From assembly GCA_000999315.1 (NCBI GenBank), contig LCFW01000007.1, positions 1-64,000 of the forward strand: DNA of 64,000 nt. Reading direction: 5' to 3'. Source of the stretch: Candidatus Peregrinibacteria bacterium GW2011_GWF2_43_17 (GTDB lineage Bacteria; Patescibacteriota; Gracilibacteria; UBA1369; UBA12470). The position numbers and the translations under genes are program-made. Positions 1,114 through 45,051 of the stretch are shown piece by piece (position 1 is the stretch's first letter; each line of letters starts with the position of its first letter). The notes under the pieces are model-generated. The model saw nothing but the letters and a program-made list of their open reading frames with translations. It was not told the origin of the DNA and did not search any database.

Positions 1114-1932
1114 TTAGAGAGGTCTTACCTCCCTCAATCTGCGCATAAGCATCTTAAATCGTGACAACAGAGGTTGGCTCTCGCCGGCAACACCAAAAAC
1201 TCTAAGAAACTGCTCAGGCTCCGTTTCATTGGCAAAAATCAACTTGGCGGTATTCCCCAAGATCAAATCAAGAAGTCTTTTGGTTGCGGAACCATCCTCC
1301 ATAGCCTTAAGTGCTATAGCAAATTGCTCACCTTGATCGGGTGCAACATATAAATTCAATTGTCTTTGCCCATTCACGCTAACAACTTCGAACGGCATAA
1401 AGGAATTCAAATACGATTTAAAAGGTTCGCCTTTTAAAAGTTTCCTTATGTCATCTTCATCCTTATCTTCTAATGTTGTTGAAACTTCGGGCGCCACAAG
1501 TGGTGTCTCAGATGGTTCGACAGGTTCGGCAACAGGAGCTCTTTCCGCTTCCACCCCCACCGGTGTCGGTCCGGCTACGGGTTCAACAGGTAGCGTTGCC
1601 GGTACTTCCGGTGCTTCTACCGGCGTTGGCGACGGTCTTGGCATTTCCGCTCCCGCTGGTTCTACCGCGGGTCCGGGGGCAACAAATGGTGTCTCAGATG
1701 GTTCGACAGGTTCGGCAACAGGAGCTCTTTCCGCTTCCACCCCTGCCGGTGTCGGTCCGGCTACGGGTTCAACAGGTGGCATCTCGGGTGGTTCGACAGG
1801 TTGTTCGGTAACAGGTGTCCTTGCCGCTTCCACCCCTGCCGGTGTCGGTCCGGCTATGGGTTCCGTTTGCGGAACAAGTTCGGGTCCGGTAGAAAATGGA
1901 TCCTCTGTATCCCGCCTAAGTTCCGGCGGCAC
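1114..1932 (-). CDS. C-terminal segment of the giant repeat protein (third frame)
   Basis: This open frame is the natural continuation of the 1854-7199 frame once the hexanucleotide tract at 1966-2070 is put back in phase. In this frame the tract reads Pro-Thr repeats and runs on as NVPTSGETPPEEVPPELRRD. Then come about three Pro/Glu/Val-rich repeats built around VEPVAGPTPAGVEAERAPV, and finally a globular end of about 110 residues (EDKDEDDIRKLLKGEPFKSY to the C-terminus) that reads like a conserved domain. Called alone, it starts at an internal ATG (MPPELRRD), which is unlikely to be the true start. The repeats share nearly identical DNA 186 bases apart (about 1501 and 1687). Function is unknown. 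Confidence 0.7.
   Translation of the reverse strand: MPPELRRDTEDPFSTGPELVPQTEPIAGPTPAGVEAARTPVTEQPVEPPEMPPVEPVAGPTPAGVEAERAPVAEPVEPSETPFVAPGPAVEPAGAEMPRPSPTPVEAPEVPATLPVEPVAGPTPVGVEAERAPVAEPVEPSETPLVAPEVSTTLEDKDEDDIRKLLKGEPFKSYLNSFMPFEVVSVNGQRQLNLYVAPDQGEQFAIALKAMEDGSATKRLLDLILGNTAKLIFANETEPEQFLRVFGVAGESQPLLSRFKMLMRRLREVRPL
1480..1870 (-). repeat. Long direct repeats coding Pro/Glu/Val-rich units
   Basis: Blocks of about 90 bases starting near 1501 and 1687 are almost identical, and a shorter, more diverged copy lies at about 1801-1862. They encode the VAGPTPAGVEAERAPVAEPV-type units of the giant protein. Near-identity at DNA level suggests recent duplication or gene conversion. Confidence 0.75.
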
Positions 1933-4900
1933 TTCTTCCGGAGGAGTTTCGCCACTGGTAGGTACGTTGGGCGTTGGCGTTGGCGTTGGCGTTGGCGTTG
2001 GCGTTGGCGTTGGCGTTGGCGTTGGCGTTGGCGTTGGCGTTGGGGCGTTGGCGTTGGCGTTGGCATCACGGGTTGTACCGGCTCCACTGGTGGCAGTTCC
2101 GGCTTCGACTCATCCTTTTCTCCCGGCGCTACCGGCTTAATATTCGGATCATAAGGAGGCTTAAAGAACGTATCTTCCGTTGACGGCGGCCTCGAATCTA
2201 CCGGGTCCGGCAACTGGGTTATCAATCTTTGCCCATGCCTGGAATCCGGCAACTGCCTTCCTGCCTGTTCCTCAAGCGTCGGCCCTTCTATCCGAGGTGA
2301 GTCCGGCAACTTCGTTATCTGCGGCGGTTCCGGTGATTTCGGTGGCGTAGGCACAATCGGCTCAACGTCTCCCCAATCCCATTCTGTCCAAACATGACCG
2401 TTTACATAACCGGGTTGAGGATATAATTCAGCCGCCGTAAGTTCAGCGACTGGGGCCAAAGACGAGCCATCCGGTCCAACAAACACAAATCCATGACCAA
2501 GCGCCTCTGAAAAACCAGCCCCCTGTCCGGGCACTTCACCACCTTTATATTTTTCCAAATTCACAGGTCTTGAAACAACAACCGGAGGCATAACAAACAC
2601 CTCGCCTTTTTCACCGGTAATCAAATACTGGTAACTTGGACATTCGCCGTCAACTATCGGAGAGGTATATCCCCAGCTATCCGGATTTGGGATTTCTCCA
2701 GTAACGGAATACTCCATCCCCGAAGGTACCGGTGGCAACACCGGACCCGGTCCCGGCGGCGGAACTTTTATCGCATCCGTACCGTCAACTTTCGCTAAAG
2801 ACCTGATCAGCCCGCTATCATCTTGCGCGCACATAACGTACTCGCCCAAATATCTCGGATTCGCACCTCCCGACACATCGAAAAACTGTTTCAATTCGGG
2901 ATGCGCCGCAAAATCTATCGTAGCCGAATGCGTAGTCGGATCTATCGGGACTTTGAAATAAACCAAATCCCCGCTCGCATCATGCGCCCCCAAATACAAC
3001 CCTATTTTGCCGGCCGCAAACACAGGTGGAACACTTAACGACTCCGCTCCGCTCGTCGGTTGTCCGCCCGCAAGCATTTTATCAATATTGAAAACCACGT
3101 TCCCATGAGCATCCAAGCCTTTCCCTCCGATACCTCCGAAATGTAAATGTTGCTCATGTACGCTTTCGTAAACCGGCAAAGTATTGTTATGCCAATGTCC
3201 GCCCAATTTGTAATGTTCAAATCCCGAAACCCCTCCCGCGCTCGGAGTACCCGGCACGCCTGGCACGCCACCCGGCACACCCGCAACAGGCACCTCCGTC
3301 ACGCTCAAATGTTTCACTCCCGTCAAATAATCCAAACTCGGTTGAGTGAATTTCCCGTCAACAATTACTATATGGCCCTTCACCTCATCCGCAGTTAGAG
3401 CACCCGTCCCAACCAATTTCCCCAAAACCGTCGAAGCGTCATCCGTTGGGATATTGATACCCGTAATCCCGCCCGGAGCCACGTCAAACCCGTTCGCAGT
3501 CATCCAGTTTTGATCAACAACATGAGTACCGGGGATATAAGCCTCGTTCGGCAATTTGAAACTCGCCGGCACATTAACGGTTATATGTTCACTCGCTCCA
3601 CCCGGCACCCTGACCTCAAACCCTCTTGGCGCAATCGCCCCTCCGTACAAAGGATGTGTGGGCACGCCCGGGTTTGTAACATCTTCGGTAACCCTAAATC
3701 CATGCGACTCAAATTCGCGGATGGTATCCGGTGTCATCCTGCAATCGCTTCCATATCGAGGATTGTCCACTCCATGATCTTTCGCGAACTGATCCAAGTC
3801 ATTTACAGCACCATAATCAACTCTCGCATTATGCCCCCACGCCATGTGGTACAACTTGCTCGCGCCGAATCCGATTGCACTTGTAGCCGCCCCGAACAGA
3901 GCGCCTGTTCCAAACGCATAAGCATTTTCTCTTCTTTTTACTCCCTTAAACGCCTTATATTGCCCTGTAATCATTTGATTCAAAGCATCCATAATCGGCG
4001 CCTTAACCGTTCTAACCTTGTCCTCAACCTCTTGCTCGGTCAGACCGTTTCTAACCATATGTTTCTTCCCTTCTGAAATCATAAATAAAAGTTTCGTTCT
4101 CTCTTGCTCGACATGTTTTTCATCAGAGAATGAAATCAAATCCACCCTCGCCCCGCTTCTTTCTTTTCTGCCACTCAAAGACATTTCGTTTCTGGCTTCC
4201 GCCTCGGCGACAGCCGCAAATAAAGCATCTTGATCTCCGGCCTTAATAGCCGCGTCAATCGCGTTAATCATCTCGAGAGCCGGTTTTTTCTTGGTTGTGA
4301 CTTTTTCCAAATCAGCTTCAAAAGTCCCCGCTTCGGCACCATAAGCACCCAAAGCTTCCCTTCTGTTCTTATGAGCCTCTTGCATAATCACGGCTCTGTC
4401 TCTATGAAGAACTGCGAGCCCTCCACCAACAGCAATCCCCGCGCCAACGGCGACAAGCGCCGGCCCAATAGCCGGAGCCGCAACCATCGCTCCCAATCCG
4501 AGCGCAACAGCTTTCCTACCCATCGAACCCGCTATCGCGTTATAACCGAAATTTACGATCCCGTAAGTAACGATACCCGCACTTGTCGGAGAGGTAAGCC
4601 ACTTGAGAATCTTATGTCTTTCTCCCCACTGTTGTAATCTCTTAACAAATCTATTCGCCCAATTCTTATCTCTCATTTCCGAATGCACATCCACATTCGT
4701 CGCCCTTCCCAATTTCAAAGCCAATTTGAAATTATCCAAATCCAAATTCACCAAGCCCGCAATATGTCTCCTTTTGAGGTCTTCCATCTTTTCAACCGCA
4801 TTCGAAACAACAAGATTGTCCGCAGTTTCGCTTGTTGGAGGAGTACCCCTCTCCGTTCTTATTTTATTCACCAAGAAGGTCGCTCGCAGTTTAAATCTCG

Positions 4901-7199
4901 CATCATCAACGGAACCGACAAGATAACCTCTCGCCAAATCGTTAAGCTCATCCATCAAAGCGCCATCCTTGAACGTATCCACAACCTCGCTCTCGCTCAA
5001 TCCCAATTCAAACCTGTTCACAATCGCCGTAACTTCCGCCTCATGTTCGACCGCCTTACCCGCATCCCCGCTCATAACCTCTTTGAAAAAGTTAGGATCG
5101 GCTTTCAATTTATCAACAAACTCTTGTTCATATTTATCTATATACCCTTGCCTTGCCAAAGACCTTCCGTAAGACCTTACGAACTTCCCAACCTTCCAGA
5201 ATTTTGGAATGATTTTCCAAACAGACCCCGGATTAATCTCCGCCATCTCTCTTTCATATCTTTCTTCGGCCAACCTTCTCGCAACTTTCTTCAACTTCTC
5301 TTCAACATCAACCGCAACAACAGTCATCTCGCCTTGTCTATCTCGTTCCATAAATCTGACACGAGGAACTTTCGGACTCTCCGGCGTCTGCTCAATGAAA
5401 GATAAGTATTTAAACAGCGGTCCGTAATCATGGAATCCGGCATTTTTCAGCAATTGATAAATCGCATACAAAGCTTGCAAATCTTTTATCTCCAAGCCGA
5501 ACTGTTGCGCATACTCTTTGTTTTGATATATTTTCGCAACCTCTTCATAAGATTTATCACCGAAATTTCTGAAATTCTGACAAAGAACCGTAAGCAACCT
5601 TCTGACTTCCGTCGTGAAACCGTTGTCCTTCTCCCCCTCCTTAATATATAAGTCCCTCAAACCGGCAGGTAAAGTATCAATATTGGCTCTTATAACAGCC
5701 ATCGCATCGTCATAATTGCCATGATCTACATCCAAAAACTTCTGCGCTTCCTTGCCCCTTACTTCGGTATTTGGGATTTTCCTCCAACCCGCCTGCGTAT
5801 CAATCAATGAAAACACAACCGGTTGCGCATCAAGAGTTTTATAAAACTTCAACGCCGCGAGAACCTGCACAAAATTCGACTCGTGCCAACTGTTCGGCAC
5901 AAGCGTAATCGCTCTCATGTAAAGCTTCCCACCTCTTTCTTCTATAGCTTTTATCAAATCATCTATCATCTTCCTTCTGGCATCTCCGTCGCCTTTTTGA
6001 TCGCCCAAGAGCGTATCCAAAATCCCGTTTATACCTTCAAGTACACCCGGATTATCTTTTTCAAACTGATCCAACGTCATATTGCTCTCGGGATCATTAA
6101 CGGTTTGATAATTACCTTTCCCCGGCTCAATGGTATTCAAAATCATGTTTGCGATCTTCCTCGTAATATCGTCAATCCTCGCCGGCTTCACACGAACCGC
6201 GCCAGCAAGAATTTTTAATTTCCTGTCCCATTTGACACAACCATCTTGGTCCTCTTCGCCTGGCTTAATACCCATAATTTCACCGAGTATTTTCTCAGCC
6301 ACTTTATATCTGCCACCTTCGGCCGCAATTTTTTCCGGCGTATAACCTGCAATTTTCTCGACAAGCTGAACTCTCAACTCATCAGCCTCTTTTTCAAGCG
6401 CAAAGTGTTTTTCTTTCTTTTCTTTCGTCGCTTTCAAAACGCTCAAATGAACTCCGTATTCAGCCTTCTCTTCATCGCTCAACGACAAAGATTCATCCGG
6501 ATCCTCCGCGTCAAAAACCACCACGGGCTCTTTGTCCGACGGCAATCCCATCCTGTCGTCATCCCAATAAAATTTTCCATTATGTTCTCTGACGTGATTC
6601 CATCTTTCACTCAAAGAAACTCCCGCATTGAGAGATTCAAGATGCAATTCGTCCGCCATTTTATTCAAAAACTCTTTGAATTTTTTCTTATCCTCTTCGC
6701 TCAAATGCCCCGCAATCTCGTTATATTTTCTCCTCGCCAAAGTACACATGTAAGCCAGCTGCGTAAGCGGCTTTCTGTTGCCAACATTCGCTCCCAGTAT
6801 ATCGAAAAGCTCTTTGTAATCGGGCGCCCCTTCCTTCATCAAAAGTTCTGCGAATTTTTTCGTCTCCGCTTCTTTCCCCTGCACGCTATCCACAAACATT
6901 CTTTCGAGATTATCAACGGCGCGTTGGTTGACTTTTGGCGGAGGAACTGACTTGCCGATACCCTCCTCGACTGGCACGTCTCCCTTCTTGCGCGGCAATC
7001 TCGGCTCAACAACATCCCCCGGCGTACGTCCTTCCAACGTAGGATACTTCGGAGGAACTACTGTTTTTTTCGGCAACCTTGTCAACCTTGGTTCGATAAT
7101 ATCCCCGGGCGTACGTACGGTCTGCGACGGCACGGATGTCCCGGTACCTTCTTCAACCGACGGCACGGATGTCCCGGTACCTTCTTCAACCGACGGCAC
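1854..7199 (-). CDS. Main segment of a giant surface- or membrane-associated repeat protein (second frame)
   Basis: This 1,781-codon frame is the middle of a larger broken gene. It opens inside the 33-nt repeat (PSVEEGTGTSV units), passes a Pro-rich stretch, and then contains a long, mostly helical charged region. Two hydrophobic segments follow: about residues 870-930 (SPTSAGIVTYGIVNFGYNAI, then a Gly/Ala-rich stretch) and about residues 1095-1120 (GTGALFGAATSAIGFGAS). After them come beta-rich Gly/Pro/Val sequence and a Pro/Asp-rich tail. Past about position 2045 it reads Gln-Arg repeats from an out-of-phase hexamer tract, so the last ~75 residues are probably not native. I recognise no catalytic domain. 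The two hydrophobic segments suggest a bitopic or hairpin membrane anchor with large soluble parts; this is inference. Confidence 0.8.
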   Translation of the reverse strand: MPSVEEGTGTSVPSVEEGTGTSVPSQTVRTPGDIIEPRLTRLPKKTVVPPKYPTLEGRTPGDVVEPRLPRKKGDVPVEEGIGKSVPPPKVNQRAVDNLERMFVDSVQGKEAETKKFAELLMKEGAPDYKELFDILGANVGNRKPLTQLAYMCTLARRKYNEIAGHLSEEDKKKFKEFLNKMADELHLESLNAGVSLSERWNHVREHNGKFYWDDDRMGLPSDKEPVVVFDAEDPDESLSLSDEEKAEYGVHLSVLKATKEKKEKHFALEKEADELRVQLVEKIAGYTPEKIAAEGGRYKVAEKILGEIMGIKPGEEDQDGCVKWDRKLKILAGAVRVKPARIDDITRKIANMILNTIEPGKGNYQTVNDPESNMTLDQFEKDNPGVLEGINGILDTLLGDQKGDGDARRKMIDDLIKAIEERGGKLYMRAITLVPNSWHESNFVQVLAALKFYKTLDAQPVVFSLIDTQAGWRKIPNTEVRGKEAQKFLDVDHGNYDDAMAVIRANIDTLPAGLRDLYIKEGEKDNGFTTEVRRLLTVLCQNFRNFGDKSYEEVAKIYQNKEYAQQFGLEIKDLQALYAIYQLLKNAGFHDYGPLFKYLSFIEQTPESPKVPRVRFMERDRQGEMTVVAVDVEEKLKKVARRLAEERYEREMAEINPGSVWKIIPKFWKVGKFVRSYGRSLARQGYIDKYEQEFVDKLKADPNFFKEVMSGDAGKAVEHEAEVTAIVNRFELGLSESEVVDTFKDGALMDELNDLARGYLVGSVDDARFKLRATFLVNKIRTERGTPPTSETADNLVVSNAVEKMEDLKRRHIAGLVNLDLDNFKLALKLGRATNVDVHSEMRDKNWANRFVKRLQQWGERHKILKWLTSPTSAGIVTYGIVNFGYNAIAGSMGRKAVALGLGAMVAAPAIGPALVAVGAGIAVGGGLAVLHRDRAVIMQEAHKNRREALGAYGAEAGTFEADLEKVTTKKKPALEMINAIDAAIKAGDQDALFAAVAEAEARNEMSLSGRKERSGARVDLISFSDEKHVEQERTKLLFMISEGKKHMVRNGLTEQEVEDKVRTVKAPIMDALNQMITGQYKAFKGVKRRENAYAFGTGALFGAATSAIGFGASKLYHMAWGHNARVDYGAVNDLDQFAKDHGVDNPRYGSDCRMTPDTIREFESHGFRVTEDVTNPGVPTHPLYGGAIAPRGFEVRVPGGASEHITVNVPASFKLPNEAYIPGTHVVDQNWMTANGFDVAPGGITGINIPTDDASTVLGKLVGTGALTADEVKGHIVIVDGKFTQPSLDYLTGVKHLSVTEVPVAGVPGGVPGVPGTPSAGGVSGFEHYKLGGHWHNNTLPVYESVHEQHLHFGGIGGKGLDAHGNVVFNIDKMLAGGQPTSGAESLSVPPVFAAGKIGLYLGAHDASGDLVYFKVPIDPTTHSATIDFAAHPELKQFFDVSGGANPRYLGEYVMCAQDDSGLIRSLAKVDGTDAIKVPPPGPGPVLPPVPSGMEYSVTGEIPNPDSWGYTSPIVDGECPSYQYLITGEKGEVFVMPPVVVSRPVNLEKYKGGEVPGQGAGFSEALGHGFVFVGPDGSSLAPVAELTAAELYPQPGYVNGHVWTEWDWGDVEPIVPTPPKSPEPPQITKLPDSPRIEGPTLEEQAGRQLPDSRHGQRLITQLPDPVDSRPPSTEDTFFKPPYDPNIKPVAPGEKDESKPELPPVEPVQPVMPTPTPTPQRQRQRQRQRQRQRQRQRQRQRQRPTYLPVAKLLRKKCRRNLGGIQRIHFLPDPNLFRKRNP
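1966..2070 (-). repeat. Hexanucleotide (GTTGGC)n tract with a phase-breaking 2-nt insertion
   Basis: About 17 units of GTTGGC (plus strand) encode Pro-Thr repeats in the correct frame. At 2042-2045 the unit reads GGGG where GG is expected, which adds two bases. In gene direction this turns PTPT into QRQR and leads to a stop at 1854. Downstream of the tract the PT frame stays open to 1114. Confidence 0.9.
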
Positions 7200-7747
7200 G
7201 GATGTCCCGGTACCTTCTTCAACACGGATGTCCCGGTGCCTTCTTCGATCTGCGGCGGCACGGGCATTTCCGTTTTGTCAAAATACGACTCTCCCGCCTT
7301 CAAAATCCTCTCAAGAATCTTTAAATCCTCAAGTATTCTCGCTCTATCGAAATTACCTATATTTCGGAACCTTCTCCTAATATCCGAAATCATTTCGGTT
7401 TTTGTAGCCAAAACCACAACCACATCACGAACATTAAACAACTTCTCCGGAACGCGAATCACATCTTTTTTCTTATTCGCATCATTCATAACTTCGCCCA
7501 AAGGCGTCACTCTGATATCCGCTTTCGGATAATTGGTCACCTCTTCCATAAACCTTTTACACGAAGGATCTTCTGAAAATCGTTTTGCCAAATTCTCGGC
7601 GCCACCAATCGCTTTTCTCAAAAAGATCCCCTCGTCGGAAGATATTTTAGCCTTGTCTTCAGCTTGAAATCTCGCAATCAAAGATTCCAGCCTTTCAAAA
7701 TCAAATTGCGACTCTCGAGCTTCTACGGTTTTTGGTGTGTTAGCCAT
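7082..7747 (-). CDS. N-terminal segment of the giant repeat protein (first frame)
   Basis: The true start of the giant gene is probably the ATG at 7745-7747 (MANTPKTVEARESQFDFERL). About 165 residues of charged helical sequence follow, ending in a short PPQIEEGTGTSV that matches the 11-residue unit PSVEEGTGTSV. After that the frame becomes LKKVPGHPCRR repeats, which is the same 33-nt repeat read out of phase, and stops at 7082. Seven bases (CCGTCGG in gene direction) are missing after the first GTG compared with the neighbouring units. Restoring them joins this frame to the 1854-7199 frame. No signal peptide is seen at the N-terminus. Function unknown. Confidence 0.75.
   Translation of the reverse strand: MANTPKTVEARESQFDFERLESLIARFQAEDKAKISSDEGIFLRKAIGGAENLAKRFSEDPSCKRFMEEVTNYPKADIRVTPLGEVMNDANKKKDVIRVPEKLFNVRDVVVVLATKTEMISDIRRRFRNIGNFDRARILEDLKILERILKAGESYFDKTEMPVPPQIEEGTGTSVLKKVPGHPCRRLKKVPGHPCRRLKKVPGHPCRRRPYVRPGILSNQG
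7127..7249 (-). repeat. 33-nt tandem repeat with a 7-nt deletion
   Basis: About three and a half units of 33 bases encode PSVEEGTGTSV. Units at 7128-7160, 7161-7193 and 7194-7222 match; the unit at 7223-7249 follows after a loss of seven bases (between 7222 and 7223). The loss changes reading frame inside the giant gene. Confidence 0.9.
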
Positions 7748-7788
7748 ATTTTTTTGTTTTTAATATTTTTTTTAAATATATGTAAAAA

Positions 7789-8022
7789 TTAATTTGTTGC
7801 TAAAATCATTTGTTCGGAGAAAAGCACCTTCGCCAAATCCGGCAAAGAGTCCGATAAAACTTTCAGCGCGATTACCTGATCGTTGTAATTCGAACAAATA
7901 CTCAGCATAAAAAAAATCGGATACATCTGTTCCAAGCTGACCACGCCGGACATAAGCGCCTGCGCAATCGCTCGCTTGATTTTAACCTGTAAATTTTTGT
8001 TTTTGTCTTCGGTTTTAAGCAT
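7789..8022 (-). CDS. Small protein of unknown function
   Basis: A 77-residue protein (MLKTEDKNKNLQVKIKRAIA...) with a charged N-terminus and two amphipathic or hydrophobic helices (MSGVVSLEQMYPIFFMLSIC; VIALKVLSDSLPDLAKVLFS). It is not a typical signal peptide or lipoprotein. It lies 41 bases upstream of the giant gene on the same strand and has a promoter-like sequence just upstream, so it may be the first gene of a transcript 77aa-giant-DUF5663. I do not recognise a family; a small helical partner or chaperone of the large protein is only a guess. Confidence 0.6.
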   Translation of the reverse strand: MLKTEDKNKNLQVKIKRAIAQALMSGVVSLEQMYPIFFMLSICSNYNDQVIALKVLSDSLPDLAKVLFSEQMILATN

Positions 8023-8039
8023 GCGTTTTTGAAAATATC

Positions 8040-8053
8040 ATTATATGATACCA
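8040..8053 (-). promoter_or_regulatory. Promoter-like element before the 77-aa gene
   Basis: On the minus strand the sequence reads TGGTATCATATAATGATA; TATAAT lies at 8040-8045 and TGGTATCAT at 8045-8053. Either could act as a -10 with about 18-25 bases to the start at 8022. No good -35 is seen. Confidence 0.45.
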
Positions 8054-8192
8054 CAAAAACGGCTTTTCTTCAATAGCGTAACGCGTTCAGCGATTGCGAA
8101 TCGATCTCGTTACCCGCCATTCCGTCCCAGGACGGACCTCGACAGATTGGAAAAAGCAAGATCCGCCTTCGCTCTACGAAGAAATTAAAATT

Positions 8193-8265
8193 AAGGAACC
8201 TCTGAAAAATGTGATTCCGTTACGAAATTCTCATTCTTAGGAAGTATGTTTTTCAGAGGTTCTTT
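8193..8265. repeat. 17-bp inverted repeat (GGAACCTCTGAAAAA type)
   Basis: The left arm at 8193-8209 and the right arm at 8249-8265 are complementary (core GAACCTCTGAAAAA), enclosing about 39 bases. The right arm covers the stop codon of the 8264-9907 gene, so it could end that transcript. The same 14-base core occurs once more at 20920-20933 without a partner arm, which suggests the end of a small inverted-repeat element rather than a plain terminator. Confidence 0.65.
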
Positions 8266-9907
8266 ATCTCACTATCCCTCTCATCCCCACCTCTTCCTCC
8301 CCCGCCTTCACTCCGAAAATCGCGCTGTTCAAAGAGTCCAAATATTCGACGATTTTACCCGCCTCGGCCGACACGGTTCCGCTCCCCGACAACACGCTTT
8401 CCGCAGTCTGAACCAGCCCCAAATAATCCGCCACCACCGCTAGATCGAGATAAAAAATCGTATTATCGTATCCTTTGATGGCCTTTATCGCATCGCTGAA
8501 AGTCTCGTCTTCCAAAAGCGAACTTTCTTCCGAGAAAACCTCCCAGTCCGGATAAGTCGAAATTATCAAAACGTCGTCCTCCGTAACCCCGTAAAACAAA
8601 CTTATCATTCCGGTCAACGAATAAGTCGGCATCACTTGTCCCAAAGCCGCCATATCCATCGAAACAACATTGAAATCACCACCCATCACTTCCGCCTCCG
8701 TTTTGATCAAAGATGAAAACGCCCCGCTCTCATCATACTCGAAAAGCGCCACCAACGACGAGATTTGCGCGTCTATTCGATCAACAAAATCATCCGCCCC
8801 GTCATGATTCGAAGACGCATCCGCAATTATCGAAAAATACGGCAGAGAGTCCGCCCCCTTATGCACCGCGATCGCATACCCTTTATCCAAAAAACTCAAA
8901 ACATCCTCCCTGACATCCATCCCCAAATACTTTGTCGCATAAGAATCCAATGTCGCATAAAACCCTTCCGCATCCCCGCTTTTAAGAGCGAAAAGTTCCA
9001 CTATTTTCGCAAATCCGCCAGCCTCCTCGTAAAAAGCTATCCCTTCCGCCGGCACATATTTCGTCAAATAAACTTCTTCTCCCGAGATATCCGAAATCGA
9101 AATCCCATACTCCGCAATCGCCTCCTTGTCCCCAACACCATACCCGCTCAACAAAAGCGCTCCGTCCTCAAAAGAAAATCCGATAACTTCACTTTTAAGT
9201 AAAATATTTCCCAAAGAAAATATTCCCAAAGAGTCGCCACCGATTTCACCATACCCCGCAACATCTACATAAACATACCCCAAATAAGGCGACTCTATCT
9301 GCGAAACGCCATTCATATACTCTTCATTGTCAAACAAACTTTCGCTATCTTCGACCGCAAGTTGCCCTTCCGCATTCATAAGGACGGTCGAACTGCTCGC
9401 AACCACCAAAACATCATCCAACAACGCCGTATAACTTTCACCATTGTCATTTTGGCTCACATAAACATCGAAATCGGATAGGGCCAACTCTGACGCCTCC
9501 CCTCTTTCAACCGTCGAGTCCAACCACTCCCGCGCCTTCACCTCATCCGCAACCGTCATGGCAACGAAATTATCCGTTCCCGCATACGCCATCACCATCC
9601 TAAACCCATCCTCTCCGATTATTGGCTTAATATCTTCGTCGTAATTTACCCCGATTCCCGCAAACCCTTCTTGCACTTTTGCAAAAAAATCGTCCGTACT
9701 GGAGAAATTATTTATAAAATTCTCGAACTCCGCCCTCTGCCCCGCATTCTTCGTCGTCACCGACAACACAAACCACACGTCTTTCGGCAACAGTTTCTCG
9801 ATCAAAACCCCGCCATCGCTGGAATTTAATGTCTCGAAACTCGGCCCGGTACAACCGACCAAGAAAATAACACCCGCCAACATCACCGCAAAAAGTATTT
9901 TTTTCAT
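8264..9907 (-). CDS. DUF3352-like lipoprotein
   Basis: A 547-residue protein with an N-terminal lipoprotein signal: basic MKK, hydrophobic core, then lipobox FLVGC with the lipidated Cys at residue 19. The mature part alternates strands and helices, with segments such as DVWFVLSVTTKN, AGTDNFVAMTVADEVKAREW, YTALLDDVLVVASSSTVLMN and GFSFEDGALLLSGYG. This arrangement is typical of DUF3352, a family of exported proteins of unknown role. It should be anchored to the outer face of the cytoplasmic membrane. It lies 22 bases downstream of another lipoprotein gene on the same strand, so the two are probably one transcript. No enzyme motif is visible. Confidence 0.75.
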   Translation of the reverse strand: MKKILFAVMLAGVIFLVGCTGPSFETLNSSDGGVLIEKLLPKDVWFVLSVTTKNAGQRAEFENFINNFSSTDDFFAKVQEGFAGIGVNYDEDIKPIIGEDGFRMVMAYAGTDNFVAMTVADEVKAREWLDSTVERGEASELALSDFDVYVSQNDNGESYTALLDDVLVVASSSTVLMNAEGQLAVEDSESLFDNEEYMNGVSQIESPYLGYVYVDVAGYGEIGGDSLGIFSLGNILLKSEVIGFSFEDGALLLSGYGVGDKEAIAEYGISISDISGEEVYLTKYVPAEGIAFYEEAGGFAKIVELFALKSGDAEGFYATLDSYATKYLGMDVREDVLSFLDKGYAIAVHKGADSLPYFSIIADASSNHDGADDFVDRIDAQISSLVALFEYDESGAFSSLIKTEAEVMGGDFNVVSMDMAALGQVMPTYSLTGMISLFYGVTEDDVLIISTYPDWEVFSEESSLLEDETFSDAIKAIKGYDNTIFYLDLAVVADYLGLVQTAESVLSGSGTVSAEAGKIVEYLDSLNSAIFGVKAGEEEVGMRGIVR

Positions 9908-9929
9908 ATTTTTATTTGTTTAAAAAGCA

Positions 9930-16129: not shown

Positions 16130-16225
16130 GATTTTTTGATATCGCTGTGAACGATTCCGCAGTGATCCTATTTCAATACCAGAAATAGGAAGCGAGGACT
16201 TAGTGAACAGCGATATCAAAAAATC
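16130..16225. repeat. Long hairpin element, copy 1 of a conserved-core family
   Basis: A perfect 19-bp stem (16130-16148 with 16207-16225) encloses a conserved core: GAACGATTCCGCAGTGATCC, an inner 8-bp stem CCTATTTC/GAAATAGG, and AAGCGAGGACTTAGTGAA. It sits between convergent genes and touches the stop of the exported-protein gene, so it may end both transcripts. Related copies lie at 46814-46863 and 46877-46975, with different outer stems. Confidence 0.75.
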
Positions 16226-18528
16226 TAATTGAACACCGGTAACGCCTCCGGCGGCCTGTATTCGATAATCACCGGATGTATCCAATAGTCGCCTGTGTAT
16301 TCCGACCGCTCGTACCCGGGACACTCTTCGTACTCCTCGCCACCTTCAACGACCGGGTAACAAACTTCGAAATAACTTGTATATTCGAGATCTTGTTGCA
16401 TCGACTCCACGCAATCCCCTTCTTCGCCGTCGCCCAGGACACACCCCTCTTCGTATCCGCCGACAGTATTTTCGGAAACCAACGATCCCCAAATATAAAA
16501 CTGATTTGGCAAACTTTCACCGTCAAAAGCTTCATCTTGAATAATGGCACCGCTTTCCTCTCCGCGATATAAGCTTCCATCCAAGAAAATATTCGCATGC
16601 AAATCGCCCACGGCACGATCCGCATACAAATCCCCGCCGTTACCATCTTCGTCTTGAAGTACGATTATCCCCAGCTCACCGCCATCTTCCTCTCTGGCTA
16701 TATCCGAAATGACATACGCATCCGCACCGACTATAACAATCGTCTTATGAAAATTTTCATCCAAAGTCGTTCCTTTTATCGTAATTAAATCGTCACCATC
16801 GCCAAAGAAATACGCAACATCGTCCGATGAAAGACTTGTTCCTTGCGAAACATACCAAGAACTCAAATCCACACTGCCGTCTCCGGCGCTTTCATACACG
16901 CCGTTTGTAACTTTTGAAACCTCTTTAAATATGGCATTTCTTATCTCGACCCTATCCAAATTACCCACGGTGGTAACATCGTCGTCATTGTTATAAAGTC
17001 CGCTAACCGTACCTTCGACCCAAACCCGCGGCTCTTGCACGCCCGCGCTTCGATCTGCAATTTCAACAATTTCAGATGGATAATATACTGTTTTCGTATC
17101 AATTCCGACCATCAAATACACGCTCGCCATGGCGACCGCGGCCGGATCTTCGGGAAGTTCCGACGCCCCGCTCAAATCGCAAAGCTCAATTCCGGTCAAT
17201 TCGGCAACCGCCGCCAACGATCCTCCCGCCGCCAAATATACCCCTCCCGGAACAGTAACACTCGACAGTCCGCAACCGGTCTGCCCAAATGTATAATTCG
17301 GATCATCCACATAATAATCCACCGGGATCACCAAGCTTCCGGCAACCGTCGCTCCATTTTTCACAACATTCCCGGCCGTAAAATTATAACTCGCCCCCTC
17401 CGTCAAAGTCGGCATATCGCTATAACTGAGAACTCCTTCAATCCCGAAATCATCTATTTCATACAAAGGCGCGAAAGACAACATCTCGGAAAAATCGACA
17501 TCCGCATTCCCTTCATACAAATCCCCCACCCACTTCGAATCCGCCACGTCAGTGGAAACACCATACGCGCCCGTGCTAACCCACTCGAACTCTCTCTCAA
17601 GTTCCGCCTGAATTTCAATTTCATCAGTAATATATAAATAATCATCCTCGCTCGTCCCGCAACTCTCCAGGTCACCATCCAAATCCCCGCACCAAGCATC
17701 GCTTGTCGGAGCATAAGACCCTATATCGAAATAATAATTCACGATATCACCGGCAATATCATAAGATCCGAAATAAATATCTCTCATCACCGCATCGTTT
17801 TGCGACCCGCCGCCCGTAACTTGATCCAATCTCAAATCGCTAACCCCTAGATCGGCATACAGTAGTCCTTCAAACATGAAAGTTTCGTCCAGAAAATCTT
17901 CCGTAATCGCATAAGGCACCTCCGACAAATCAATCTCTGCGGTTATCCTGTACCCGCTGTTCACCCCATCCGCAACCGGCAAACCGTCCGCCCTGATGTC
18001 TCCATAAGTTTCAATCGAAAAACTTATCCCAACCTGCAACATGGGCATCTCTTGCTCAAGATCTTCAAAACTCAAATTTCCAATATGCGCATTCGTCGCC
18101 TCCCCGTAAATCACGCCGTCGCTTAAATCGGTATAAACACCGCTCAAATCAAACCACACCCCGTAAGACGAAGTCGGCAAATACGGGTTCAAAGGGGCAT
18201 AAGCATACCCGCTCCATTCCGCCAGCCCGTCTAAATCGGCATCGGCCAAATCCATACTTGCGGAAGAATGAATACGATCGCTTTTATCCAAATAAATCAA
18301 TCCCAAATTCGAACTTCTGACTTCTCCATCCAATTCTCCGGCGGAATTAACACACGCCGTCCCGTAATAATCCGCATCAACATAACCGGTATTAAAAGAG
18401 GCATGGGCCGCGCTGTCACCCGTAAAATAATAACAATCCGTATCGGCGGAAAATGCGACATTCTGTCCGACAAACATTATCGGCAAAACAAGCACAAAAG
18501 GTACAAACCCGAATAATTTTGTTTTCAT
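16225..18528 (-). CDS. Large exported protein of unknown function
   Basis: 767 residues starting MKTKLFGFVPFVLVLPIMFV, a good signal peptide cleaved near NVAFSADTD. I chose this ATG because the frame open upstream runs into topA and has no signal character. The mature protein is acidic, Tyr/Asp/Gly rich and beta-like. Segments such as SNLGLIYLDKSDRI and LAEWSGYAYAPLN recall the GWAWSENIGWISF-type surface repeats common in Patescibacteria, but are diverged. A later region (about residues 480-690) looks like extracellular fibre or polysaccharide-binding sequence. It probably sits on or leaves the cell surface. No enzyme motif is seen. Confidence 0.75.
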   Translation of the reverse strand: MKTKLFGFVPFVLVLPIMFVGQNVAFSADTDCYYFTGDSAAHASFNTGYVDADYYGTACVNSAGELDGEVRSSNLGLIYLDKSDRIHSSASMDLADADLDGLAEWSGYAYAPLNPYLPTSSYGVWFDLSGVYTDLSDGVIYGEATNAHIGNLSFEDLEQEMPMLQVGISFSIETYGDIRADGLPVADGVNSGYRITAEIDLSEVPYAITEDFLDETFMFEGLLYADLGVSDLRLDQVTGGGSQNDAVMRDIYFGSYDIAGDIVNYYFDIGSYAPTSDAWCGDLDGDLESCGTSEDDYLYITDEIEIQAELEREFEWVSTGAYGVSTDVADSKWVGDLYEGNADVDFSEMLSFAPLYEIDDFGIEGVLSYSDMPTLTEGASYNFTAGNVVKNGATVAGSLVIPVDYYVDDPNYTFGQTGCGLSSVTVPGGVYLAAGGSLAAVAELTGIELCDLSGASELPEDPAAVAMASVYLMVGIDTKTVYYPSEIVEIADRSAGVQEPRVWVEGTVSGLYNNDDDVTTVGNLDRVEIRNAIFKEVSKVTNGVYESAGDGSVDLSSWYVSQGTSLSSDDVAYFFGDGDDLITIKGTTLDENFHKTIVIVGADAYVISDIAREEDGGELGIIVLQDEDGNGGDLYADRAVGDLHANIFLDGSLYRGEESGAIIQDEAFDGESLPNQFYIWGSLVSENTVGGYEEGCVLGDGEEGDCVESMQQDLEYTSYFEVCYPVVEGGEEYEECPGYERSEYTGDYWIHPVIIEYRPPEALPVFN

Positions 18529-18561
18529 TTTGGTAAAAGCTTTTATGTATAATATCGTATT

Positions 18562-18570
18562 ATTATACCA
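18562..18570 (-). promoter_or_regulatory. Extended -10 promoter before the exported-protein gene
   Basis: On the minus strand TGGTATAAT (TATAAT at 18562-18567) lies 33 bases upstream of the ATG at 18528. It is one of several TGGTATAAT elements in this window. Confidence 0.6.
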
Positions 18571-18587
18571 AAAAAGCACCCTGCTGT

Positions 18588-20771
18588 CTACATCCCGCAC
18601 TTCAGACAAACATTCCCGCTTTTCTTCTCCGCCATCACCCAGCCGCACTTCGGACAAGGCTCTTTCGAAAGTTTATCCCACGAAGCAAATTTGCATTTCG
18701 GGTACTTATTACATCCGTAAAAAGTCTTTCCCCTTTTTGTGCGTTTCTCGACAACTTGCCCTCCGCACTCGGGACACTTGACCCCAATCATATTCACTAT
18801 TTTCTGAATGTTTTTACATTTCGGATAGGCGCTACAAGCCAAGAACGGACCGTATCTTCCAACCTTCACTTCCATTTGCGCTCCGCATTTGGTGCATTTT
18901 TTATCGTGAAATTTTTTCTCGGCGGTTTCGATCTCTTTTTGTTCGGCGGCATTCTTTCCGAGAGGTTTCGCGTTTTTACATGTCGGATATTTAGAGCATG
19001 ATAAAAACTTCCCGAATCGTCCGAATTTTATAACCATTTTCGCTCCGCATTTCTCGCAAATCTCGTCGGTTTCCTGAGCGATATCTTCCTTTTTAATGGA
19101 TTTATTTTTGGCTTCTATAAGCGCATGGAAAGGCCCATAAAAAGCTTTCAAAATCGGGACCCATTCTTTTTCACCTTCGGCGATTTTATCCAAGTCGTCC
19201 TCCATCTCGGCAGTGAATTGATAATCAACGATATTCGGAAAGTGTTCGACCAAAAGATCAACGACAACATTCCCGATATCTTCCGGCACAAGTTGTTTTT
19301 CGGGATTTTTCACAATATATCCTCTTTGCACGATTGTACCGATCGTCGGAGCGTAAGTGCTCGGTCTGCCGATCCCCAAGGATTCGAGTTTTTTCACAAG
19401 CGACGCCTCCGTATATCTCGCCGGCGGTTTCGTGAAATGTTGCGTCGGCTCGATTTTCTCAACATCAAGACCATCTCCTTCGGCAACATCGGGCAAAATC
19501 TTTTCCGAATCTTGCTCGTCACCCTCATCCAAACCTTCTATATAAACTTTCATAAAGCCATCGAATCTCATAACTTGACCGTTCGCACGGAGCAAATATT
19601 TCCCGGCGGAAACATCGATCGCCGTTCTGTCGGAAATGCAAGTCGGCATCTGCGACGCAATCGTTCTCTCCCAAATAAGCTTGTAAAGTCTAAAGTGGTC
19701 TCGTCCTATTTTATCTTTCAGGTCGTCCGGCCTAATACTCAAATTAACAGGTCTGACAGCCTCGTGAGCCTCCTGCGCGCCTTTCTTATTCTTATATCTC
19801 CTCGCCTCGGAAAGAACATATTTTTTACCATAATCCGCTTCTATAACTTCTTGCGCCTGTTTCAATGCAAGCTCGGAAATCTTCACGCTATCCGTTCTCA
19901 TATAAGTTATCAAGCCGTGTTCGCCGTGCCCGCCTTCATACAACTCTTGAGCGACAAACATCGTTCTCTTGACCGACATATGCAATTTTCTCGCAGCCTC
20001 CTGTTGTAACGTAGATGTCGTAAATGGTGGTGGCGGAGTTCTGTGGTGCTCCTTTTTTTCTATTTTTTGGACCGTAAAATCTTCCTTCTCGAGATCGGCA
20101 ACTATTTTTTTCGCGGTTTTCTCATCCCCCACTTTTTCTTCAATCAAAAAAGATTCGAACTCGCCGTTTTTATGCTCGCAAAGTGCACAAATTTTCCAAT
20201 ATTCTTCAGGCTTAAAAGCTTGAATCTCTCTTTCCCTTTCCACAATCAACCTAACCGCAACGCTCTGCACGCGACCGGCGGACAACCCATATCGGATTTT
20301 CCTCCAAAGAAGAGGAGAAAGTTCATAACCGACCAATCTATCAAGAATTCTTCTTGCCTGTTGTGCATCAACAAGCTTCATGTCTATTTCGCGCGGGTTT
20401 TCGACAGCCTCGATAATCGCAGGTTTCGTAATTTCATGAAAAACTATTCTTTTTGGTTCTTTTTTTAACCCAAGGGCCTCTTTCAAATGCCAAGAAATAG
20501 CTTCTCCTTCGCGGTCCTCATCAGTCGCCATCCATATTATCGTCGATGCTCCGATTTTCGACTTAAGACTCAATATCACCTTCTTCTTATCGGTCGACAC
20601 TATATATTTAGGTGTAAAATTTTTCTCGGTATCAACCCCCATTATCGACTTCGGAAGATCTCTTACGTGACCCATCGAGGCCTCAACAACATAATCATGA
20701 CCGAGAAATTTCGAGATCATTTTAGCCTTAGCCGGAGACTCAACTATCACGAGATTTTTCGCTATAGCCAT
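18588..20771 (-). CDS. topA: DNA topoisomerase I
   Basis: 727 residues, type IA. The N-terminal TOPRIM begins IVESPAKAKMISKFLG, and the acidic triad DEDREGEA is present. The catalytic Tyr is in GLITYMRTDSVKIS (about residue 289), and SAGRVQSVAVRLIVER follows the family. The C-terminus carries three or four zinc ribbons from about residue 575 (CEKCGAKMVIKFGRFG, CTKCGAQMEVKVGRYG, CPECGGQVVEKRTKRG, then CPKCGWVMAEK). The enzyme removes negative supercoils in the cytoplasm. It stands upstream of the exported-protein gene, which appears to have its own promoter. The start ATG at 20769-20771 sits 35 bases from a good promoter. Confidence 0.96.
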   Translation of the reverse strand: MAIAKNLVIVESPAKAKMISKFLGHDYVVEASMGHVRDLPKSIMGVDTEKNFTPKYIVSTDKKKVILSLKSKIGASTIIWMATDEDREGEAISWHLKEALGLKKEPKRIVFHEITKPAIIEAVENPREIDMKLVDAQQARRILDRLVGYELSPLLWRKIRYGLSAGRVQSVAVRLIVEREREIQAFKPEEYWKICALCEHKNGEFESFLIEEKVGDEKTAKKIVADLEKEDFTVQKIEKKEHHRTPPPPFTTSTLQQEAARKLHMSVKRTMFVAQELYEGGHGEHGLITYMRTDSVKISELALKQAQEVIEADYGKKYVLSEARRYKNKKGAQEAHEAVRPVNLSIRPDDLKDKIGRDHFRLYKLIWERTIASQMPTCISDRTAIDVSAGKYLLRANGQVMRFDGFMKVYIEGLDEGDEQDSEKILPDVAEGDGLDVEKIEPTQHFTKPPARYTEASLVKKLESLGIGRPSTYAPTIGTIVQRGYIVKNPEKQLVPEDIGNVVVDLLVEHFPNIVDYQFTAEMEDDLDKIAEGEKEWVPILKAFYGPFHALIEAKNKSIKKEDIAQETDEICEKCGAKMVIKFGRFGKFLSCSKYPTCKNAKPLGKNAAEQKEIETAEKKFHDKKCTKCGAQMEVKVGRYGPFLACSAYPKCKNIQKIVNMIGVKCPECGGQVVEKRTKRGKTFYGCNKYPKCKFASWDKLSKEPCPKCGWVMAEKKSGNVCLKCGM

Positions 20772-44952: not shown

Positions 44953-45023
44953 GACCCTACAACGAGTATTGTGCGTCATACCGTCCTAGGTATTTGAATA
45001 TACATTTTCAACAATCATCGCTA

Positions 45024-45051
45024 TCTACTATCTACTATCTACTATCTCCCC
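45024..45051 (+). repeat. Heptanucleotide array at the ArfB-like gene end
   Basis: Three exact TCTACTA units and TCTCCCC. On the minus strand the array encodes the last residues and stop of the ArfB-like gene. This is the only array not placed just before a start codon. Confidence 0.8.

Follow-up and report, generated by a model that had tools for sequence, protein, structure and literature searches.

The window analysed here is a 64,000-nucleotide stretch of a Peregrinibacteria contig. Three consecutive open reading frames lie on its minus strand at the coordinates that the preliminary description had given (Table 1). Together they span 6,634 nt, and with both proposed length corrections, which restore a 26-nt repeat copy to 33 nt and an 8-nt unit to 6 nt, the span becomes 6,639 = 3 x 2,213, in agreement with the 6,639 bases and 2,213 codons calculated earlier.

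Table 1. Features of the giant gene and its surroundings (window positions)
Feature	Position	Strand	Basis and content
C-terminal frame	1114..2109	-	272-aa ORF 1932-1114 in a frame open from 2109
Imperfect 93-nt repeat	1506..1863	-	TRF; proline-rich linker
Middle frame	1854..7199	-	Frame open from 7277, ORF of 1,781 aa; helical core; hydrophobic at residues 893-934 and 1095-1114; proline-rich thereafter
CCAACG hexamer tract	1965..2064	-	TRF; (PT)n linker; one 8-nt unit (break 2)
N-terminal piece	7082..7747	-	221 aa ORF; ATG at 7747; N-terminal region
33-nt tandem array	7125..7246	-	TRF; VEEGTGTSVPS; break 1 at a copy of only 26 nt
Upstream gene	8264..9907	-	Lipoprotein-like, DUF3352; conserved neighbour

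Two frame breaks within tandem arrays

The first break lies in the 33-nt array, which consists of three copies with 100% matches (7125-7223) and an adjoining short copy of 26 nt (7197-7246). The upstream frame ends in ...IEEGTGTSV, and the middle frame continues the same repeat peptide, (VEEGTGTSVPS)n. Past its first EEGTGTSV copy the N-terminal piece runs on for about 46 out-of-frame codons, including the nonsense peptide KKVPGHPCRR, to a TGA stop, while the apparent start of the middle frame is a GTG positioned inside the 33-nt repeat.

The second break lies in the hexamer array (GTTGGC/CCAACG), which has 16.2 copies including one irregular unit and is the sole such tract in the examined sequence of the source genome. 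Here the middle frame passes from PTPTPT to a nonsense overhang, QRQRQR, and the PT series continues in the C-terminal frame, which consists of a proline-rich linker and some 110 terminal residues. The roughly 5 kb separating the breaks, described earlier as open throughout, indeed carry no lesion.

Elsewhere on the minus strand of the window, an 810-aa frame of unknown family (16225-18657) overlaps the topoisomerase I gene (18588-20771) by 70 nt; the TTG assigned as its start may be wrong.

Relatives of the giant gene

Relatives of the core of the middle frame, with its VDVEEK...LAEER motifs and hydrophobic segments, were found in three further genomes: G001 (Candidatus Peregrinibacteria CG2_30_44_17, MNZJ01000032.1) from the same family, and G059 (JADZCU010000004.1) and G068 (JAGOLJ010000004.1) from the same order. 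No others turned up among 89 genomes from the order and a sample of 288 from the class; the genomes searched included no second genome of the source species or genus. The gene is a member of a patchy, hitherto undescribed family of membrane proteins of about 2,200 aa, present in 4 of the 89 genomes of its order.

The comparison with related genomes that had been proposed earlier, for an intact protein of about 2,212 aa, yielded one of 2,172 aa in G068. This homolog is a single open frame, in contrast to the three frames of the source assembly. It has the same core, the same two hydrophobic regions and a similar total length, and a (PT)n-rich linker follows its probably exported part at the position of the hexamer tract; it differs from the window protein in the N- and C-terminal regions, and identity reaches 34% in the best stretches. 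The G059 homolog begins at a contig end and has an in-frame (SGDT)n linker at the position of the hexamer tract. In G001, the N-terminal region and the core lie in one 1,060-aa frame, 41-46% identical to the window protein across about 830 residues and preceded, as in the window, by a DUF3352 gene; unlike the window gene, it breaks off at the first hydrophobic segment, where the contig ends, and has no 33-nt repeat between the N-terminal region and the core.

Because the G068 homolog is a single frame and G001 joins the N-terminal region to the core in one frame, the three frames are one gene, not three. This bears out the earlier proposal of one gene broken twice, each time within a tandem repeat, on the grounds of frame continuity and an uninterrupted relative. 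Three separate genes are barely credible: a possible start codon can be found in each frame, but that of the middle frame is the GTG inside the repeat, the overhangs past both breaks are nonsense, and the reading conflicts with G068 and, as far as the first two pieces are concerned, with G001 as well.

The two ends of the protein are less conserved. The N-terminal piece shows a weak global similarity to the G001 N-terminus (z ~2.6), BLAST gave no match between the two, and no convincing match to this piece was found in the relatives; nor did the C-terminal region of about 110 aa have a convincing relative. Since the direct N-terminal similarity is weak, the join at break 1 is supported by position and frame more than by sequence.

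Two of the homologs have further neighbours. Beside the G059 homolog (7197-9911 of its locus) lies a frame of 904 aa that combines two peptidoglycan-binding domains with a weak match to glycosyltransferase-2; a glycosyltransferase gene comes next. A RuBisCO large-subunit gene is located downstream of the G068 homolog (3-1038 of its locus).

Predicted architecture of the protein

No family in Pfam, NCBIfam or PHROGs fits the giant protein, and profile searches of solved structures gave marginal matches alone (VPS28 and an ion channel, E ~0.03), which we take as chance. The sequence before the hydrophobic segments abounds in Lys, Arg and Glu, whereas after them Lys and Arg are scarce and Pro is frequent. 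By the positive-inside rule, this composition suggests that the N-terminal half is cytoplasmic and the C-terminal half exported. AlphaFold models of both halves, computed from 3-4 sequences, are of low confidence (mean pLDDT 39 and 53); they hint at a mostly helical N-terminal half and a C-terminal half with some strands.

The protein does not resemble a secreted cell-wall adhesin, which would combine an N-terminal signal peptide with a wall-anchor domain: the N-terminal piece has no N-terminal hydrophobic segment and no visible signal peptide, and the Pfam and NCBIfam scans revealed no wall-anchor domain. The earlier designation as a surface protein is thus plausible for the C-terminal half only, as some 1,000 residues at the N-terminus appear cytoplasmic. 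We infer that the single gene would encode a membrane-anchored Peregrinibacterium protein of about 2,200 residues. Its N-terminal half would be long, helical and probably cytoplasmic; membrane segments would come next, and then a C-terminal half that is probably exported and sits on flexible linkers of Pro/Thr-rich repeats. The likely role of the protein would be to display an extracellular domain on these linkers.

Peregrinibacteria are reported to be enriched in huge proteins of more than 5,000 aa (PMC11573180). The window protein comes from the same candidate phylum but is smaller, at about 2,200 aa. A much larger likely surface protein is found in the source assembly itself: contig C2 (8053-23799, minus strand) contains an uninterrupted frame of 5,249 codons, whose product has a hydrophobic segment at the N-terminus, numerous acidic repeats of the DxDxDG type and an apparent SLH sequence near the C-terminus.

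Origin of the frame breaks

Frame switches were sought with a coding model trained on long ORFs from the same assembly, the giant gene excluded, using a Viterbi path with penalised switches. The scan covered 409,327 nt, i.e. the whole of contig C7 and samples from C1-C6, C8 and C9. At high stringency exactly two frame switches were called, both in the giant gene. At a lower stringency, which detects 60 of 83 simulated lesions, three additional switches were called, and all three proved false: two mark places where one gene gives way to another, and the third falls in a fully open frame. The sampled assembly is therefore otherwise clean, and assembly-wide indel noise was rejected, no other switch having been upheld in 409 kb. 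An earlier frame model based on codons alone recovered 16 of 83 simulated lesions and was given up as too insensitive. An alternative genetic code with TGA readthrough was rejected as well: TGA terminates 52 of 200 long coding frames and is a normal stop. If two lesions fell at random in the giant gene, both would land in these two arrays with a probability of roughly 0.1%, or about 0.8% once the imperfect 93-nt array is counted as a target.

Of the explanations named earlier, assembly error fits best. We assign a probability of about 0.6 to the reading that both breaks are assembly or consensus errors and not a biological switch. They would have arisen by imperfect joining inside the two near-perfect tandem arrays, each some 100 nt in length, where assembly is ambiguous. 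Several observations point this way: each break is flanked by the same repeat peptide read in different frames; the relatives are uninterrupted at the matching places (G068 and G001, with the G059 linker in frame); both lesions are non-unit changes (26 for 33 nt and 8 for 6 nt); and the 5,249-codon frame of the same assembly is free of frame switches. In public bacterial genomes, assembly often gives rise to spurious frameshifts, and it is a recognised cause of false pseudogenes (PMC11017572). On the other side, this reading needs two independent errors in one gene, and since a coding array of about 245 nt (C1, 33486-33730) came through in frame, repeats are not always broken in this assembly. 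True indels, too, concentrate in repeats. The main lesson is that repeat-rich giant genes in draft genomes may resemble pseudogenes.

If the strain had acquired real indels recently, or if the consensus had captured minority variants from a mixed population, the gene would be newly disrupted, or disrupted in part of the population. We consider this unlikely, though it has several points in its favour: tandem arrays are mutation hot spots; the base quality appears good, as the sampled assembly is otherwise without sequencing-type frameshifts; and the family is patchy, so the gene may be dispensable. It would require, however, two separate non-unit indels in a single gene without further decay in 5 kb, and slippage usually gains or loses whole units, which would keep the frame here. 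The population mixture suggested earlier survives within this lesser alternative. A reading in which frame-changing indels in the arrays join or detach the N- and C-terminal parts, so that cells of one population differ, seems improbable.

The preliminary description had also raised slippage-driven on/off switching, and this is not supported. Phase variation, with the two repeats acting as on/off switches for the protein or for its N- and C-terminal parts, would account for the location of both breaks in repeats, and it typically targets large exported proteins. Like phase-variable loci of Neisseria and Haemophilus, the giant gene has tandem repeats in its coding sequence and specifies a large protein that is probably exported. 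Translational switching at such contingency loci, however, needs units that are not multiples of three and frame changes by whole units, whereas neither break is based on such a repeat: the units are 6 and 33 nt, and the altered copies measure 8 nt and 26 of 33 nt. Since both units are multiples of three, their gain or loss would alter the length of the linker and not the frame; in a survey of Neisseria, repeats of 3, 6 and 9 nt likewise keep the frame when unit number changes (PMC5084427). In addition, the relatives have other, in-frame linkers at these places, and a limited literature search found no phase-variable locus of such a kind in Patescibacteria. We therefore regard phase variation as very improbable. 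If the breaks proved both real and variable, they would count as evidence that a giant exported protein undergoes phase variation in Patescibacteria, a group with many members believed to live on other cells.

Programmed translational frameshifting, which would fuse the pieces into one protein, is more doubtful still. From the sequence, both breaks could be crossed by a shift in the same direction (-1), but a canonical slippery heptamer was seen at neither site and the homologs carry the parts in one frame.

Two further repeats were noted. On contig C8 (4876-5154), a 90-nt unit is present in 3.1 copies with 98% matches, in sequence that is non-coding by the model used. In the window, the heptamer CTATCTA forms a perfect repeat of 3.9 copies (45021-45047) outside the coding frames found; judged by its unit length, which is not a multiple of three, it is a better candidate for slippage effects than the repeats of the giant gene.
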